From: Leptospiraceae bacterium
Lineage (GTDB): Bacteria; Spirochaetota; Leptospiria; Leptospirales; Leptonemataceae
DNA length: 64,000 nt
Assembly (NCBI GenBank): GCA_026418015.1
Contig: JAOACE010000008.1
Coordinates: 310,001-374,000, forward strand
Reading direction: 5' to 3'
Positions 687 to 60,739 of the stretch are shown piece by piece. Under the pieces are notes generated by a model, which was not told the DNA's origin, did no database searches, and saw nothing but the letters and a program-made list of their open reading frames with translations. Each line of letters starts with the position of its first letter. The first letter of the stretch is position 1. The translations under genes were made by a program, and so were the position numbers.

Positions 687-1139
687 TTATTCCAATCCTC
701 TTAAACCTAATTTTTTACATAATTTATAGAATGTTTCCACTTCTTTTTTGTTAAAAACAGAAAATTCTTTTTTAATGTCTTCTAAATGAATGGGAAACAG
801 TTCTTTTATAAGCTTTTCTCCTTCCGGTGTTAGATAAACTAATGTATTTCTTCTGTCTTTTTTGTTTGTTTCTCGTCTAATCAATCCTCTTTTTTCTAAA
901 TTTTCTAAAACTGTACAAATGTTAGAAGCAGATTTTAAGATCTTTTTAGAAACTGTTTTTTGATTCATTGGACCTAAAAAATAAAGAGCTTCTAATACTC
1001 CAAATTGACTAAACGTTAACCGTTCTTTTGTTAATAAATCCGAAAGTCTTTCTAGAACGGAATTATAAGCTCTTAAAAAAGCGATATAAGCATTCAGGAT
1101 TAATTTTTCTTCTTCTGTTCCAGGATATTTAGTTGGCAT
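687..1139 (-). CDS. MarR-family transcriptional regulator
   Basis: A 150-residue protein of the usual MarR length. The central winged helix-turn-helix includes LTFSQFGVLEALYFLGP and the wing signature DRRNTLVYLTPEGEKL, both typical of the family. MarR proteins are dimeric DNA-binding repressors or activators that often respond to phenolics, oxidants or organic acids; the ligand cannot be read here. The gene lies directly downstream of doxX on the same strand, 55 bases away, and a perfect 13-bp inverted repeat sits 15 bases before its ATG. A larger palindrome overlaps the region before doxX, so autoregulation of a doxX-marR operon is likely. No clear Shine-Dalgarno precedes the ATG at 1139. 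Confidence 0.88.
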   Translation of the reverse strand: MPTKYPGTEEEKLILNAYIAFLRAYNSVLERLSDLLTKERLTFSQFGVLEALYFLGPMNQKTVSKKILKSASNICTVLENLEKRGLIRRETNKKDRRNTLVYLTPEGEKLIKELFPIHLEDIKKEFSVFNKKEVETFYKLCKKLGLRGLE

Positions 1140-11075: not shown

Positions 11076-12004
11076 GTGAAAATGACTACACATTTTTTGT
11101 ATTGGCTTATTTTTATTGTTGTAATTTCTATGATGTTAGCAATCGATCTATGGTATACAGATCACAGCAAAACAAAAATGGGATTAAAGCATGCTCTTAT
11201 TTGGAGCGCTATTTGGATTGGAGTAGCTCTTTTGTATAATATTTCTATTTATTTTAAATTTTCCGATGGTCATATTAAAGCAATGGAATTTCTAGCAGCA
11301 TATTTGATGGAAAAATCTTTGTCAGTAGATAATTTATTTGTTTTTATTATGATCTTTACTGTAATGGGTATTGAAGATAGAGACCAACCCCATATTTTAA
11401 AGTGGGGAATTCTAGGCGCAATTTTTTTTAGAATCATTTTTATTCTTACAGGTGTTGCTCTTATCGAAAAGTTTGATTTTGTAATCTATATCTTTGGTGC
11501 AATTTTACTTTTTACTGCTTACAAAATGGCTTTTATGGAAGAAAAAAAAATTGAACCAGAAAAAAATCTTTTCGTAAAGTTTGTTTCTAAGATTTTTCCC
11601 GTTAAAACAAATAATGTGCACAAGTTTTTTGTTAAAGAAAATGGTAAATTATACATAACCAATCTTTTTTAACACTTGTTTTAATCGAATCAACGGATAT
11701 AATTTTTGCATTAGATTCAATTCCAGCTGTAATTGCAATTTCAAGAGATCCGTTTATTATTATCACATCAAATATTTTTGCAATTTTAGGTTTAAGAGCT
11801 TTGTATTTTGCTTTAGCTGGAATCATGGGTTTGTTTCGGTTTCTAAAATATGGAATATCATTTTTACTCTTTTTCGTTGGTGTTAAGATGTTGATTTCAG
11901 ATTTTTATCACGTTCCAATTAATATATCGTTGTTTGTAATAGCAATCACATTAACAATATCTATCTTAGCTTCTGTTTTAATCAAAGAAAAACCTAAAAC
12001 ATAG
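11076..12004 (+). pseudogene. TerC/Alx-family membrane protein gene with one-base frameshift
   Basis: TerC-family proteins are integral membrane proteins tied to tellurium resistance or manganese export. The first frame (GTG 11076 or ATG 11082) runs through FLAAYLMEKSLSVDNLFVF, the family signature, to a stop at 11670. From 11669 the -1 frame continues with TLVLIESTDIIFALDSIPAV, the second signature, and ends at 12004. One missing T in the T-run 11665-11670 explains the break: with one more T the protein would read straight through at about 309 residues, the normal length. The cause may be true inactivation, a homopolymer sequencing error, or slippage on the T-run. The rest of the coding sequence is intact, so any loss is recent. 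Confidence 0.85.
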
Positions 12005-12166
12005 TTTTTTGTAATATCAGCCATATTTTAAAAAACGATCTACTTGATCATCGAAGCATTTCTGTGTTATGATACATTGATTTGTAATGATTGAAAATCA
12101 ATAGAAATGAGCTATCATTATTTTAGGAATGAACAGTTCCTGAATAGTTTTTTTGCTAGGGTCTTG

Positions 12167-12823
12167 AAAAATTTTTTGTTAATAATTCACACGAAATGAT
12201 ATTAAATAAATATGAAGATACAAAACTTTTATACAAATAAAAAATGTAGAACATCGATCAACATTACTCAATTTCATTATGTGTATTTGATTTATCTTAC
12301 AGAAACCCGTTTTAATGGGGATCTTTCTTTAACGATGGATTATTTGTTCAAAAAATATTTAGCCTATCTATATAAATCTAGCCAAGCACCCAATAAGAGA
12401 ACATTAACAGCAACTTATCAGCCAAGGACAAAAAACTATTTAGTACGCACAATCCATATTCAACCCACGTATTGGGGCAAGTTGCAGGAACTCAGGTTTT
12501 TTTTAGGATTATCGATGAGTTTTATCATTCGCATCCTGTTAGACTGGGAAATGGAAGAAGAACAACGTCCCATTGACCCTATATTGATAAAACCACCATT
12601 AAACTTCGAGGATGAGGAAATACATGCTGCCATCCAACTTGGACATAATTATTCTTCATATAATAGAGTGAATCATGTTAATTTAGAGGTTTATAGTGAA
12701 TTTTCTTGTCCGGCAGCTTAAAATTTATAGATTATAAATAAATTTTATTTTTTTTATTTATAATTTTATTTTATATTTTCAACCTGAAATGTTCCCATAT
12801 TGTACTAAAAAATTTTTTGTTAA
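12167..12823. repeat. 16-bp direct repeat flanking the first DUF1564-like gene
   Basis: The 16-mer AAAAATTTTTTGTTAA occurs at 12167-12182 and again at 12808-12823, on either side of the gene at 12212-12721. It is low-complexity in an AT-rich genome, so chance is possible. The placement would also fit an inserted or mobile cassette. No terminal inverted repeats or transposase accompany it. Confidence 0.35.
12212..12721 (+). CDS. DUF1564-like (possible CopG/RHH-type) protein, copy 1
   Basis: A 169-residue protein clearly paralogous to the genes at 23578-24096 and 60063-60584. Shared features are an N-terminal segment ending in a KYLxxLY helix, the central TATYQPRTK, a W-x-K-L-x-E-x-R pattern, a FLGLSMSFIIRILLDWEME block, and an acidic, variable tail. 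The central block, with a strand before two helices, suggests a ribbon-helix-helix-type DNA-binding fold. The pattern resembles DUF1564, a paralogous Leptospira family described as possibly CopG-like; that assignment is from memory. This copy is the most diverged of the three and has a different N-terminus. It stands alone between terC and the ABC operon. Function unknown. Confidence 0.65.
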   Translation: MKIQNFYTNKKCRTSINITQFHYVYLIYLTETRFNGDLSLTMDYLFKKYLAYLYKSSQAPNKRTLTATYQPRTKNYLVRTIHIQPTYWGKLQELRFFLGLSMSFIIRILLDWEMEEEQRPIDPILIKPPLNFEDEEIHAAIQLGHNYSSYNRVNHVNLEVYSEFSCPAA

Positions 12824-23465: not shown

Positions 23466-23577
23466 ATGAAATTATAACTTTTTTAAAAAATATCTCTTCG
23501 GTATCAAGAATAACATAAGAACAATATTTGCAAAAATAAAAATAACTATAAATTTTTTTTATAAATATATTATAATT

Positions 23578-24096
23578 TCAAGAATATTGATCTACAAAAA
23601 TAGCAATAATTCTTCTTGATTCATAAAAACCTTGCTTTTTATAAAAATAATTATTTATCCAATGAGCTATTAGTTGCGTTTCTGAATTTCTTGTATCATC
23701 ATGTAATAAATCAGGCAAAGGAATCCATGGAATTATGTCGTATCCGAGAGATTGCATTTCCCAGTCCAACATAATTCTTATCAGTGCGCTTATAGAATAG
23801 CCTACAAAATGTCGCATCTCGAATAATTTACTCCACAATACGGGATTCATAGATATTGTCTTTTTTTTGTATCGTTTTGTTTGTGGCTGATAGTTTGCAG
23901 TTTCTGTTTTTTTTCTCGGTGTGATTCTTATATGGTATAGATAATTCAGATATTTATTCAAAAGATAATAAATTGCAAGAGAATAATCACCTTCGTAATT
24001 TGTTTGAGCTATCTGTTTAAGAAATCCAAGATGCTGCATTTCAAGGTTAATACAAACAGGATAAAATTTTAGTGTAATATATCTATCTTGTATCAT
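23578..24096 (-). CDS. DUF1564-like (possible CopG/RHH-type) protein, copy 2
   Basis: A 172-residue paralogue very similar to copy 3 at 60063-60584 and more distantly to copy 1 at 12212. Shared segments are MIQDxYxTxKxYPVC at the start, AIYYLLNKYLNYLY, ETANYQPQTKRY, NPVLWSKLFEMRHFVGYSIS, MLDWEMQSLGYDIIPW, and NNYFYKKQGFY near the end. The start is put at the MIQD codon because copy 3 begins there, although the frame is open for 12 more codons upstream. The predicted strand-helix-helix core would suit a ribbon-helix-helix DNA-binding protein. Role unknown. Confidence 0.7.
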   Translation of the reverse strand: MIQDRYITLKFYPVCINLEMQHLGFLKQIAQTNYEGDYSLAIYYLLNKYLNYLYHIRITPRKKTETANYQPQTKRYKKKTISMNPVLWSKLFEMRHFVGYSISALIRIMLDWEMQSLGYDIIPWIPLPDLLHDDTRNSETQLIAHWINNYFYKKQGFYESRRIIAIFVDQYS

Positions 24097-24139
24097 ATAA
24101 TATAAAATCTCATTTTGACAAAATATTATCATAAAAAAA
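24097..24139 (-). promoter_or_regulatory. Leader of DUF1564-like copy 2, conserved with copy 3
   Basis: Read on the minus strand: a T-tract, ATGATA exactly 36 bases before the start, the palindrome TTTTGTCAAAA, AGAT, then the start region. The same arrangement with equal spacing stands before copy 3. TATGAT just after the T-tract could be a -10 box. Confidence 0.55.
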
Positions 24140-24274
24140 TTTAAGGTTTTGAAATTCTTCGATGGATAGTTTAATTTAATAAATAAAAATAAATTAACTC
24201 TAAGCTATATTTACCCCAAGTTTTATTAAACAAAAAAAACTATATTTTAAAGCAAATCTTAAAAATTTGGTTCT

Positions 24275-24940
24275 ATGCAAAAACAAATTGTTGGATATTC
24301 GGTAAAAAATCAACCTATAGAGGTTTATTATAACCAAAATCCTAATGCGAAATTTTCTATTCTATTTCTTGGAGGAGTACATGGCAATGAATCCGAAGGT
24401 TTTATTTTTTTAGAACGTTTTCTTAAAGAAATTGATCAAAAAAACATAAAAATACCCTCAGAAATCTCTTTGTGGATTTGTCCGCGTATCAACCCCGATG
24501 GATGCAGTGTATTAAGAAGAACCAATGCTCATAACGTAGACTTAAACAGAAATCTACCAACAAAAGATTGGACTTCTGATTTTACCGAACCCAAATATTA
24601 TCCTGGTCCCTATCCTTCGAGTGAACCAGAAACCATTGCTACATTAGTTCTAATCCATAACATAAAACCTAAATTCATCATTTCTTTTCATTCTTACGAA
24701 AACCCCATGATCAATTACAACGGTAATTGCTTAGAATTAGCTGAAGAAATGGCTAAATACAATCACCTTGAACCCAAAGGCGATATAGGTTATCCTACAC
24801 CAGGCAGTTTAGGAACTTATGCTGGTTTCGAAAACAACATTCCCACAATCACTCTCGAAATTTTAAGAGGACAAGCACCAGACGAAGTTTGGAAACAACA
24901 TCTCGATGCAATACTAAAATCCTTGGAATTTTATTTATAA
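24275..24940 (+). CDS. M14-family zinc carboxypeptidase (MpaA/murein-peptide amidase-like)
   Basis: A 221-residue cytosolic peptidase. The zinc-binding LGGVHGNESEG, the CPRINPDG and NAHNVDLNRN segments, FIISFHSYENPMI and a C-terminal TLEILRG (with the catalytic Glu) are as in the M14 murein-peptide amidase group. Such enzymes cleave the gamma-D-Glu-diaminopimelate bond when cell-wall peptides are recycled. It lies 19 bases before dapD, a diaminopimelate biosynthesis gene, which supports a link to DAP metabolism. No signal peptide is visible. No strong Shine-Dalgarno precedes the ATG. Confidence 0.8.
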   Translation: MQKQIVGYSVKNQPIEVYYNQNPNAKFSILFLGGVHGNESEGFIFLERFLKEIDQKNIKIPSEISLWICPRINPDGCSVLRRTNAHNVDLNRNLPTKDWTSDFTEPKYYPGPYPSSEPETIATLVLIHNIKPKFIISFHSYENPMINYNGNCLELAEEMAKYNHLEPKGDIGYPTPGSLGTYAGFENNIPTITLEILRGQAPDEVWKQHLDAILKSLEFYL

Positions 24941-34547: not shown

Positions 34548-37500
34548 ATGGATCAAAATAGCAACGTAAATCTTATTGAAAACTTTTTAGAAGGATTAGA
34601 CGAATACAAACCCGAATTTTTTTTCCCTTATGATAAGATTTTAAAAGACGATATAAAAGAAAAATTAAAACAAAAAGATCCAGAATTTATCGAAAAATAC
34701 CAAAAATTATTTCCCTTTCCCTTATTAGAAGAAACTAAAGAAACACAAACCGAACCAGAATTAGATTTACAAACGCCTGATATCGATATTGAAGCTCAAC
34801 AAGATTTACAAACACCTGATATCGATATTGAAGCTCAACAAGATTTACAAACACCTGATATCGATATTGAAGCTCAACAAGATTTACAAACACCTGATAT
34901 CGACTTCGAAGCTCAACAAGATTTACAAACACCTGATGTCGACTTCGAAGCTCAACAAAATTTACAAACACCTGATATCGACTTCGATACTCAACAAGAT
35001 TTACAAACACCTGATATCGACTTCGAGGCTCAACAAGACTTACAAACGCCTGATGTCGACTTCGAAGCTCAACAAGACTTACAAACACCTGATATCGACT
35101 TCGATACTCAACAAGATTTACAAACACCTGATGTCGACTTCGAAGCTCAACAAAATTTACAAACACCTGATGTCGACTTCGATACTCAACAAGATTTACA
35201 AACGCCTGATGTCGACTTTGAGGCTCAACAAGATTTACAAACACCTGATATCGACTTCGAAGCTCAACAAGATTTACAAACGCCTGATATCGACTTCGAA
35301 GCTCAACAAGATTTACAAACGCCTGAATTAAGTTTAGAATCACCAGATACTACTTCTGAACAAAAAGATACTTTCGATTTAGGAGATATTAGTATTGATG
35401 AATCTGAACTAAAACAAATGAAAGAACAAGCACTTTTAAGCGAAGGTATTGGTGCAGAATTAAGCGATAAGGAATTAGCACAATTAAGACAATCTCTATT
35501 ATCCTATTCTGAACCTGTAAGAAAAGCCATTATTGATGCAATCGTTAACGAAAAGATTTCTAGACCAGAACAAAGAATCCTCCTAAACATGCTTATCGAC
35601 GAAGCAGAAGAAGCCAACATCCTCGATTTTATCGAAGAGAAATTAGGTTATAGACCCAAAGTTTCCATCGAAAAAACAAAAGAAGGTATACCTATCATCT
35701 ACACCGAGGATGTATCTCCAGAAGCACTAAAAAGAAAACGACAAAGAACAACGATTCTTTTATTTAGCAGCATTAGTTTAATCGTTGGCAGTATATTATT
35801 TTTATTAGGAATTCGATTTTATCATTATTATTCAACAAAAAACTTATACGAACAAGGTCTAAAAATTTTGGATCAAGCTAATAGTTTACCAATATCCGAA
35901 AGAGAAAAAGCAATTACAGAAGCAGAAAATTATTTCGAAAGAGCATTAAGTAAAGAAGGAGAATTCAACGTTAAATACCTCAATCTTTATGGGAATGCTT
36001 ATATTAAATTGGGAAAATTCGACCAAGCATTCGAAAAACTTTTTGGTAAAATTCAGCCAGATTATTTATGGAATTCTCCACAGCAACGAGTTCCTTTAAT
36101 AAATAAAATCACCTCTTGGAGAAATTACAACGAAATTAAACAAGGATATTATACAGAATTTAGTTCTAACGATAACATAAAAAGAACCTTACTTATGCCA
36201 GGAGGTTATACAGTTACTCGGTTAAGAGATGGAACATTCGATAAAGAAAATATAATCAATTTAGCAAAATTTCATTCTTTAAACTTTCCTTATTTTTTAG
36301 AATCCGAAGAAGGGAAAAAATACAAAAACGACGAATTAGCTATAGATTATTATAAAATTATTTTAACATTGATGAATAAGCCCAACGATCCAGAAGCAAT
36401 TTATGGCATTGGTCAGATCTATTACAATCAAAAGAAGTTTTCTAAAGCAACAAACGAATTTCAAAAGATTATCGATCAAAATCCAGATAATATATTAGGC
36501 CATGATGGTATTCTAAATACTTATATCGAAGTTTGGAAAGAAAACAAAGATCCACGTTATGTAATCGCAAAACATCGCTATCTACAACAGATAAACTTAG
36601 AAAAAAAATTGCCCATTTATACATTAGCGAAGTTAGCTGGTTTCTATGTAGACATTAACCCAGAAACACTCAGAATAAAATACAATGTAGATCCTGTAAA
36701 TACTATCAATCAATTAGATATAAATACAACAACTGAATATTTATTAGATTTGATCTATCATAAAAAAGAAGAACGTGATGGAATAGAAATAGAAGGCAAA
36801 AAATACGGAGAAGGGTTTTATCAACGCGGTAGATATTATTTTAAAATCAAACAATTTCAGAATGGGGTAAAGCAATTTCAGAATGCTTATTATTTTGATC
36901 CAAAACATTTTCCTGCCATATTACACATCGGCGAATATTATTTATACAAACTTAAAGATTACGACAAAGCAAAAGATTATTTTCTAGAAGCTTTAAAAGT
37001 TTACCTTAAAGAGAAAGATTTTTATGGAATAAGACCAGAAGACGAAACACTCATTTCTTTTAACAAAGGTTTGATTTATTACAATATCGTAAGTGTTATA
37101 TTCGAAAAACACAAAAAAGAATTTATTCCACCTATAACATCATTATCAGAACCAAATGAATCTTACCAAAATCTTCTAAAAGAATTCGATAGCACAGAAG
37201 AATACAACTTAAAAGCAATTGAACTTCTAGAAGATCAAGACAAAACCAATATCTCTTTATATAGACAAGGTTTTATCGATTATATCCATGGAAATTATGA
37301 CAATGCAATAAAAAATTGGTTATCGATAAGAGAATCGGAAGATTTATATAAATCGCCTATCTATTACATTGCATTAGGGAATGTTAGTTTTAAGAAAGAA
37401 CAATACAACCAAGCATTAGATTATTTTAAACAAAGCGAAAAAATACTAGAAGAACAAAAAAAATTAAAAGATATTTATAATCATATTTTATATTATACTT

Positions 37501-37757
37501 ATAATAATATTGGTGCAACTTACGAAGCACTATACTATAAAAATATGAATAAAATACCCAAATATAAACTAGATGAATTAAAACAAAAAAGCATGAGTTA
37601 TTATTATAAAGCACTAGAATTTGGAAATCAGAATAAAATCATACCCGTTAAATCCAAGATCAACTTAGATCTTTCTTTTAAAAGAGAAAAAGATCAAATC
37701 GAATTAGAAGATTCTTTATTACCGGAACTTTTTTTTGATGTTAAAGATTTCCAATAG
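34548..37757 (+). CDS. Membrane TPR protein with 14-copy tandem-repeat segment
   Basis: A 1069-residue protein in three parts. Residues 1-72 are acidic and soluble. Residues 73-254 are fourteen copies of the 13-residue unit DLQTPDIDFEAQQ (with I/V, F/I, EA/DT variation), plus a partial fifteenth. A short charged region then has a conserved-looking YSEPVRKAIIDAIVNEKISRPEQRILL. One membrane helix lies at about 401-424. The C-terminal 630 residues are a TPR array, for example PEAIYGIGQIYYNQKKFSKA. The topology puts the repeats on one side of the membrane and the TPRs on the other. It may be a scaffold; function unknown. It overlaps the convergent wecG-like gene by 64 bases. Confidence 0.8.
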   Translation: MDQNSNVNLIENFLEGLDEYKPEFFFPYDKILKDDIKEKLKQKDPEFIEKYQKLFPFPLLEETKETQTEPELDLQTPDIDIEAQQDLQTPDIDIEAQQDLQTPDIDIEAQQDLQTPDIDFEAQQDLQTPDVDFEAQQNLQTPDIDFDTQQDLQTPDIDFEAQQDLQTPDVDFEAQQDLQTPDIDFDTQQDLQTPDVDFEAQQNLQTPDVDFDTQQDLQTPDVDFEAQQDLQTPDIDFEAQQDLQTPDIDFEAQQDLQTPELSLESPDTTSEQKDTFDLGDISIDESELKQMKEQALLSEGIGAELSDKELAQLRQSLLSYSEPVRKAIIDAIVNEKISRPEQRILLNMLIDEAEEANILDFIEEKLGYRPKVSIEKTKEGIPIIYTEDVSPEALKRKRQRTTILLFSSISLIVGSILFLLGIRFYHYYSTKNLYEQGLKILDQANSLPISEREKAITEAENYFERALSKEGEFNVKYLNLYGNAYIKLGKFDQAFEKLFGKIQPDYLWNSPQQRVPLINKITSWRNYNEIKQGYYTEFSSNDNIKRTLLMPGGYTVTRLRDGTFDKENIINLAKFHSLNFPYFLESEEGKKYKNDELAIDYYKIILTLMNKPNDPEAIYGIGQIYYNQKKFSKATNEFQKIIDQNPDNILGHDGILNTYIEVWKENKDPRYVIAKHRYLQQINLEKKLPIYTLAKLAGFYVDINPETLRIKYNVDPVNTINQLDINTTTEYLLDLIYHKKEERDGIEIEGKKYGEGFYQRGRYYFKIKQFQNGVKQFQNAYYFDPKHFPAILHIGEYYLYKLKDYDKAKDYFLEALKVYLKEKDFYGIRPEDETLISFNKGLIYYNIVSVIFEKHKKEFIPPITSLSEPNESYQNLLKEFDSTEEYNLKAIELLEDQDKTNISLYRQGFIDYIHGNYDNAIKNWLSIRESEDLYKSPIYYIALGNVSFKKEQYNQALDYFKQSEKILEEQKKLKDIYNHILYYTYNNIGATYEALYYKNMNKIPKYKLDELKQKSMSYYYKALEFGNQNKIIPVKSKINLDLSFKREKDQIELEDSLLPELFFDVKDFQ
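34764..35309 (+). repeat. 39-bp tandem repeat, 14 full copies
   Basis: The unit begins GATTTACAAACRCCTGATRT and is exactly 39 bases. Fourteen copies span 546 bases, followed by a partial copy at 35310-35327. Variants recur in patterned order, suggesting block duplications. Because 39 is a multiple of three, the frame is kept and long open frames also appear on the other strand and in the +1 frame; these are shadows. Confidence 0.97.
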
Positions 37758-60062: not shown

Positions 60063-60584
60063 TCAATAAAATTGATCATCAAAACTAGCAATAATTTCTC
60101 TTGCCATATAAAATCCTTGTTTTTTATAAAAATAATTATTTAACATTGGTTCAGGTGAATGTATTTGAATATTGCCCGTACCATTTTGTTGTTGTATAAC
60201 AGGTAGAGCAATCCAGGGAATTATGTCGTATCCGTAGGATTGCATCTCCCACTCTATTAGAATTCTTATTAATCCACTAATAGAATAACCAATAAAATGT
60301 CGCATTTCGAATAATTTACTCCAAAGTACTGGATTCATTTTGATCGTCCATCTTCTATACTGTTTCGTTTTTGGCTGGTAGGTTGCCGTCTCTGTTTTTT
60401 TGTAGGAGCTGATTCTTATTTCGTAAAGATGACTTAGATATTTATTCAAAAGAGAATAAATTGCGAGATCATAATTACCATCAAAATGCATATGAGTAAT
60501 TTCTCTTAAAAAAACGTTGTGGCGTAGTTCTAAATTCAAACAAACAGGATAAAGTTTTTGTGTGGTGTAGCTATCTTGTATCAT
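60063..60584 (-). CDS. DUF1564-like (possible CopG/RHH-type) protein, copy 3
   Basis: A 173-residue paralogue of copy 2 (MIQDSYTTQKLYPVC, AIYSLLNKYLSHLY, ETATYQPKTKQY, NPVLWSKLFEMRHFIGYSIS, EWEMQSYGYDIIPW, NNYFYKKQGFYMAREIIASF). The acidic loop between the last two blocks varies most. It stands directly upstream, in the opposite direction, of the polysaccharide cluster that begins with wzz at 60740, so it could regulate that cluster or itself. DNA-binding is inferred from the RHH-like pattern only. Confidence 0.68.
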   Translation of the reverse strand: MIQDSYTTQKLYPVCLNLELRHNVFLREITHMHFDGNYDLAIYSLLNKYLSHLYEIRISSYKKTETATYQPKTKQYRRWTIKMNPVLWSKLFEMRHFIGYSISGLIRILIEWEMQSYGYDIIPWIALPVIQQQNGTGNIQIHSPEPMLNNYFYKKQGFYMAREIIASFDDQFY

Positions 60585-60628
60585 ATAAACTTATATCTCT
60601 ATTTGTGCAAAATCTATCATAAAAAAAA
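60585..60628 (-). promoter_or_regulatory. Leader of DUF1564-like copy 3, conserved with copy 2
   Basis: Read on the minus strand: T8 tract, ATGATA exactly 36 bases before the start, TTTGCACAAA (palindromic half-sites TTTG/CAAA), AGAT, then the start. Copy 2 has the same layout. The upstream ATG here opens a nine-codon frame that ends in TAA before the gene. Confidence 0.55.
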
Positions 60629-60739
60629 TACATCTTGATGATTTTTTATTTAATTTATAAAAATTCAATACTGGAATCACCAAACTCTTATAAATATTTT
60701 TTATTGACATGATTTACTAAAATAATTTTTTGAATTTTT

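Follow-up and report, generated by a model that had tools for sequence, protein, structure and literature searches.

A conserved leader on the cassettes of a multicopy family of predicted tandem ribbon-helix-helix proteins in a Leptospiraceae bacterium

Results and discussion

Three family copies in the window

The window (the whole stretch of 64,000 nucleotides that was analysed) contains three copies of a gene family whose nearest sequence family is Pfam DUF1564 (PF07600) (Table 1). Copies 2 and 3 share 63% protein identity (tblastn) and belong to subfamily A; copy 1 represents subfamily B, and the two subfamilies are about 35% identical at the protein level. Read on the minus strand, the leaders of copies 2 and 3 showed the features that an earlier note on this DNA had pointed out: a shared T-tract (T7 and T8), the hexamer ATGATA, which precedes the homologous ATG by exactly 36 bases, and a TTTG/CAAA dyad, which takes the form TTTTG-T-CAAAA in copy 2. 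Likewise, the frame of copy 2 is open up to 24132, an in-frame extension of 12 codons, and the nine-codon frame of copy 3 closes with TAA (60593-60591). Further 5', the intergenic DNA of the two leaders showed no kinship, again as described. The interval given for this description, 23578-24139, holds copy 2, while copy 3 lies outside it.

Table 1 Features of the three family copies (window coordinates)
Feature	Position	Strand	Details
Copy 1 leader, subfamily B form	12162-12211	+	Match of leader model R2 at C17:322164-322214 (window 12164-12214), E = 7.6e-8
Copy 1 gene	12212-12721	+	Subfamily B, 169 aa
Copy 2 trailer	23470-23577	-	AT-rich; TTTATAAA-like core about 15-25 bp past the stop; weak ACCGA-like motif about 80 bp past the stop
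Copy 2 gene	23578-24096	-	Subfamily A, 172 aa; homologous start ATG (MIQD...) at 24096
Copy 2 leader	24097-24146	-	T7 tract 24139-24133; ATGATA at 24132; extended -10-like TGATAATAT 24131-24123; dyad TTTTGTCAAAA 24123-24113
Copy 3 gene	60063-60584	-	Subfamily A, 173 aa; ATG at 60584; predicted tandem beta-alpha-alpha
Copy 3 leader	60585-60634	-	T8 tract 60628-60621; ATGATA at 60620; extended -10-like TGATAGATT 60619-60611; dyad TTTG-CA-CAAA 60611-60602; nine-codon frame 60620-60591

Two other genes of the window deserve mention. Directly before copy 1 lies a gene (11076-12005) that we take to encode a TerC-like membrane protein; it looks split by a frameshift near 11670, with the remainder in another frame, and appears to be a pseudogene or an assembly error. 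A 1069-aa protein (34548-37757) contains many consecutive, almost identical DLQTPDIDIEAQQ-type repeats, which leave two further frames open as well.

Family size and distribution

Searching the genome of the window (G000; 2.91 Mb, 28 contigs) yielded 46 matches to the copy 3 protein (tblastn) and 49 matches to a profile built from the 36 complete members, 48 of the latter without an internal stop. The 5' part is intact in 41 copies; 36 are complete, none with an internal stop, and five are truncated by a contig end. Of the 56 contig ends, 12 have coordinates at, or a few bases from, a family match, presumably because near-identical copies break the assembly, as would be expected. The sister genomes of the same genus gave 16 (G001), 4 (G002) and 56 (G003) matches, and one weak match was found among 57 other genomes of the same search. 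No match was found in viral contigs, PHROGs or PDB sequences, nor in plasmids, where the copy 3 protein was the sole query.

In the phylogenetic tree, 18 A copies formed one G000-only group (support 95/84) and 18 B copies another (100/99). Since both are set apart from the copies of the sister species, each subfamily has expanded, or has been homogenised, within the lineage. The coding sequences are under purifying selection, with dN/dS of 0.07-0.31 in 13 chosen pairs from G000 and a pooled pN/pS of 0.12 over 30 intact copies in G003. The earlier note had offered recent duplication as one explanation of the shared leaders; this does not suit copies 2 and 3 at their level of protein identity, but it does suit other copies, which are 95-99% identical in DNA.

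As to DUF1564, 16 matches were obtained in G000, seven of them above the cut-off (four alone, three with neighbours in frame). All window proteins scored below the curated 25-bit cut-off (copy 1, 23.2 bits; copy 2, 18.6; copy 3, 13.7), and PF07600 itself has no recorded function. Within the class it occurs in 18 of 48 genomes, with a maximum of 49 matches per genome; four genomes of another family of the same order (G022, G026, G027, G028) contain 27-49 matches each.

A leader conserved across the family

Ungapped pairwise identity over positions -45 to -1 was 0.56 among A leaders, 0.62 among B leaders and 0.48 between A and B (15 A copies, after removal of 8 close relatives from 23, and 18 B copies). 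The corresponding values were 0.31-0.36 in flanks beyond -90 and 0.36-0.40 in shuffled sequences, so the likeness of the leaders is not due to chance. We then used sequence-only models of 23 A leaders (R1) and 18 B leaders (R2) to search the whole genome, a check that the earlier note had proposed. At E ≤ 0.01, R1 found 20 of the 23 A leaders and R2 all 18 B leaders, a recovery (38 of 41 copies) that is partly circular as the models were built from these very leaders. Absence of the leader from other family copies, which the earlier note had named as refuting its reading, was therefore not observed. The copy 2 leader, itself among the training sequences, was the top match of R1 genome-wide (E = 3.3e-9), followed by that of copy 3 (E = 1.1e-8). 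An independent cross-test was provided by matches outside the training group: the best three non-B matches of R2 were all A leaders (L038, E = 0.008; L022, 0.012; L039, 0.021), and the five best non-A matches of R1 included three B leaders (L055, 0.0022; L054, 0.035; L053, 0.076).

At E ≤ 0.01, R2 found no leader outside the family genome-wide, and R1 found two. One (C16:218169) lies inside the beginning of a coding frame. The other (G000 C13:177700-177749; L155, about 1001-1050, minus strand; E = 0.0026) immediately precedes the ATG of a long open frame for which Pfam gave nothing at E ≤ 1; it may be a further target or a chance match. Two family-free leaders are too few to propose a regulon that extends beyond the family.

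Concerning the nature of the leader, the suggestion of a shared promoter or operator fits the sequences. What the leaders have in common is better described as a T-tract followed by the extended -10-like TGnTAnnnT. This combination was present in 11 of 23 A leaders (1.8 expected from shuffles) and 6 of 18 B leaders (1.4 expected); in the G003 group, the form TTTTT..[TA]GnTAnnnT was found in 34 of 34 leaders (1.6 expected). We also considered ATGATA as an alternative start codon and rejected it, because frame and stop vary between copies: some A copies have the in-frame extension, others lack it, and most B copies are without ATGATA.

In A and B as in the G003 group, an AT dyad has its centre 21-23 bp upstream of the start; it is clear only in the G003 group, where it scored 4.35 at -23 (shuffle maxima: mean 2.77, SD 0.11). 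The A leaders scored 3.0 of 6 pairs at -22 (mean 2.78, SD 0.15) and the B leaders 3.39 at -21 (mean 2.95, SD 0.14), with a rival centre at -33 scoring slightly higher in B (3.44).

Predicted fold of the family protein

The guess of the earlier note that the proteins are ribbon-helix-helix (RHH) regulators gained support from the predicted structure. Folding of the copy 3 protein, the first row of an alignment of 36 sequences, gave a model (A1; pLDDT 78.7, pTM 0.72) with two beta-alpha-alpha units in tandem (E12-19 H20-33 H38-58 and E76-83 H85-98 H102-116) and an additional C-terminal hairpin. Its nearest PDB chains were F-plasmid TraY (Z 7.4), a permuted single-chain Arc (Z 6.2) and AvtR (Z 6.0); scores of Z 6-7 are within the range that the structure comparison tool VIA flags with a warning, and the best Foldseek E value, 5.9e-3, was weak. 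The chains from relaxosome entries were taken as TraY from the entry titles and PMC12117103, according to which the TraY monomer holds the whole RHH dimer fold. Profile comparison found A1 and the G003 group to be homologous (probability 95.9); a model made for the G003 protein reached pLDDT 33.9 and was set aside.

The family protein is therefore predicted to be a single-chain tandem RHH protein which, like TraY, AvtR, VirC2 and single-chain Arc, would combine two beta-alpha-alpha units in one chain. It differs from these chains in sequence (6-14% identity) and, compared with TraY and its kin, in having dozens of paralogues, in the modelled C-terminal hairpin and in its location outside a conjugation locus. 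By analogy of fold, the family proteins may bind DNA sequence-specifically through the RHH sheet.

Family copies are discrete cassettes

DNA identity between close copies ended sharply 44-85 bp 5' of the start and at most about 110 bp 3' of the stop. For instance, it fell from 1.00 to 0.27 at -75 in the pair L027/L028 and from 0.93 to 0.33 at about -44 in L038/L039; L023/L026, with about 200 bp in common upstream, were an exception. As the edges are sharp on both sides and the flanks unrelated, each copy represents a discrete cassette. These boundaries indicate that putative promoter, gene and short trailer, about 0.65-0.7 kb in all, were copied around the genome as a unit. None of the 36 complete G000 copies lies within a longer reading frame. 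Alignment of the regions downstream of 22 A and 18 B copies revealed that the TTTATAAA-like core and the weak ACCGA-like motif seen in the copy 2 trailer are common to other A copies and to many G000 copies; these conserved motifs could be a terminator or a remnant of the cassette end.

An occupied and an empty site could be compared at L028. This copy lies antisense between two genes whose orthologues in G002 (46% and 51% identity) share a 4-bp overlap, with no copy present, and the right end of the cassette apparently supplies the stop codon of one flanking gene. Downstream of copy 2 lies an operon that is conserved in G003 and G002, and G002 has no copy upstream of it. In G003, an IS66-type cassette of its own (L083, C1:406818-407333) stands in the other orientation upstream of the orthologue of 24275-24940, the window gene that adjoins copy 2, and is an independent insertion at the same gene. 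Around copy 3, gene order is too scrambled for a comparison of occupied and empty sites.

IS66-type transposition in a sister genome

We inspected 38 (L083-L120) of about 45 homogeneous G003 cassettes. Their ends carry GTAAGCG inverted repeats, and in 30 of the 38 (manual count) both ends were within two mismatches of GTAAGCGnTCAA/TTGAnCGCTTAC. Exact 8-bp target duplications flanked 19 cassettes, and 24 matched in at least 7 of 8 positions compared with 27 of 1406 mismatched pairings; an exact 7-bp or 9-bp flank match was seen in one cassette each. Among the four genomes of the genus (G000-G003), only G003 has IS66 transposases, four full copies and two fragments. The G003 element is 1786 bp long with ends GTAAGCGCTCAA...TTGAGCGCTTAC that match the cassette ends (one of the four copies has a single mismatch at the right end), two of the four copies have exact 8-bp duplications, and about 25 bp at the left end of the cassette resemble the right end of the element. 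Judging by these sequences, the related cassettes of G003 were moved by IS66-type transposition. Many copies in this genome are decayed: of 74 matched stretches, 37 were full-length without stops and 25 contained stops (manual count).

PMC11946415 gives IS66 ends starting with GTAAGCG and 8-bp repeats; mobile insertion cassettes (MICs) and an IS66 element carrying a passenger gene are described in PMC3129680 and PMC12888890, respectively. The G003 cassettes resemble such elements in their IS66-type ends, 8-bp duplications, single gene, lack of a transposase and resident cognate IS66. Unlike those elements, they carry as passenger the gene of a predicted DNA-binding regulator together with its leader; the window cassettes differ in having no such ends.

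For the 36 complete G000 copies, IS66-type terminal repeats and 8-bp duplications were no better than in flank-swapped controls, and we therefore do not class the window copies as IS66 cassettes. No IS66 transposase was found in G000.

A separate observation in G003 concerns L096, L064 and L123-L126 (a separate subfamily), which are broken by another repeat containing TTGCATAAAAGTTAA. This stretch also lies beside several IS66-type cassettes, e.g., L088, and the repeat is probably another mobile element.

Function of the leader

We consider it probable that the leader is the promoter, and probably also an overlapping operator, of a family of predicted single-chain tandem RHH proteins specific to this lineage, and that promoter, gene and trailer spread as a cassette. 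RNA polymerase would use the TGnTAnnnT element, transcription would begin at the dyad or close to it, and binding of the family proteins at the dyad would let each copy limit its own transcription and that of its relatives. The proposal of autoregulation draws on the fold together with the position and conservation of the dyad; auto- or cross-regulation of the family by its own proteins is plausible on this model. An alternative reading, possible but in our judgement the less convincing one, is that the leader only starts transcription and translation of the family genes in the ordinary way, that common ancestry and the need to express these genes have preserved it, and that the proteins act elsewhere and do not regulate it. 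This would account for the promoter-like T-tract and TGnTAnnnT, for a dyad that exceeds shuffled sequences only a little in A and B, and for the finding that distances between A leaders follow overall protein distance (r = 0.57) about as well as distance in the DNA-contacting strands (r = 0.55). In a partial Mantel test, leader and beta-strand residues co-varied marginally in A (r = 0.22, p = 0.049) and not in B (r = 0.05, p = 0.34). However, the approximately 45 ungapped conserved positions exceed the needs of a -10 element and a ribosome site, and three divergent groups have a dyad centre between -21 and -23 in common; both argue against the plain promoter.

The edges of the cassettes bear on two further explanations. 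If the leader served as a signal for recombination or transposition, read whenever a copy moves or converts another, and owed its conservation to this role, one would understand why the 99%-identical L038 and L039 diverge just where the T-tract starts, and why the edges vary among close pairs (-44, -54, -75, -84) as conversion tracts might. We regard this as improbable, because the transposon ends in G003 lie further upstream with the leader internal, and in other G000 pairs identity extends upstream past the leader before it breaks. Finally, many antitoxins are RHH proteins and autoregulate, and the family might thus be the antitoxin of toxin-antitoxin modules with an overlooked partner. PMC3493377 lists RHH antitoxins of Leptospira licerasiae. 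Yet the shared DNA of aligned pairs ends so soon after the stop that there is no room for a partner gene, no conserved adjacent toxin gene was found within it, and the G003 cassettes have one family reading frame between their ends, which makes an antitoxin role very hard to credit.

Conclusions

Gene families with tens of copies in small genomes usually stay labelled DUF. Here, the sequence explains the spread of at least one branch, through IS66-ended cassettes, and suggests the type of protein. Passenger genes in IS66-mobilised cassettes are known; for a predicted RHH regulator that travels with its own leader in dozens of copies, a search of the open-access literature found no description, and the same search found no papers on DUF1564. 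A bolder and rather doubtful extension of the promoter-operator reading is that of a self-spreading regulatory network: the cassette would unite repressor and operator, and more than 40 copies would be under mutual repression and might together determine how many copies the family has or how strongly it is expressed. On that view, G003 would have IS66-moved cassettes with dead copies, while in the species of the window movement would have stopped or changed and nearly all copies would be intact, as if the network had been adopted by the host. The comparison of moving and dying copies in G003 with intact ones in G000 makes the domestication of a mobile regulator testable. Since almost all copies carry the leader as a fixed candidate binding site of 50 bp, the function of the family would be directly testable as well.
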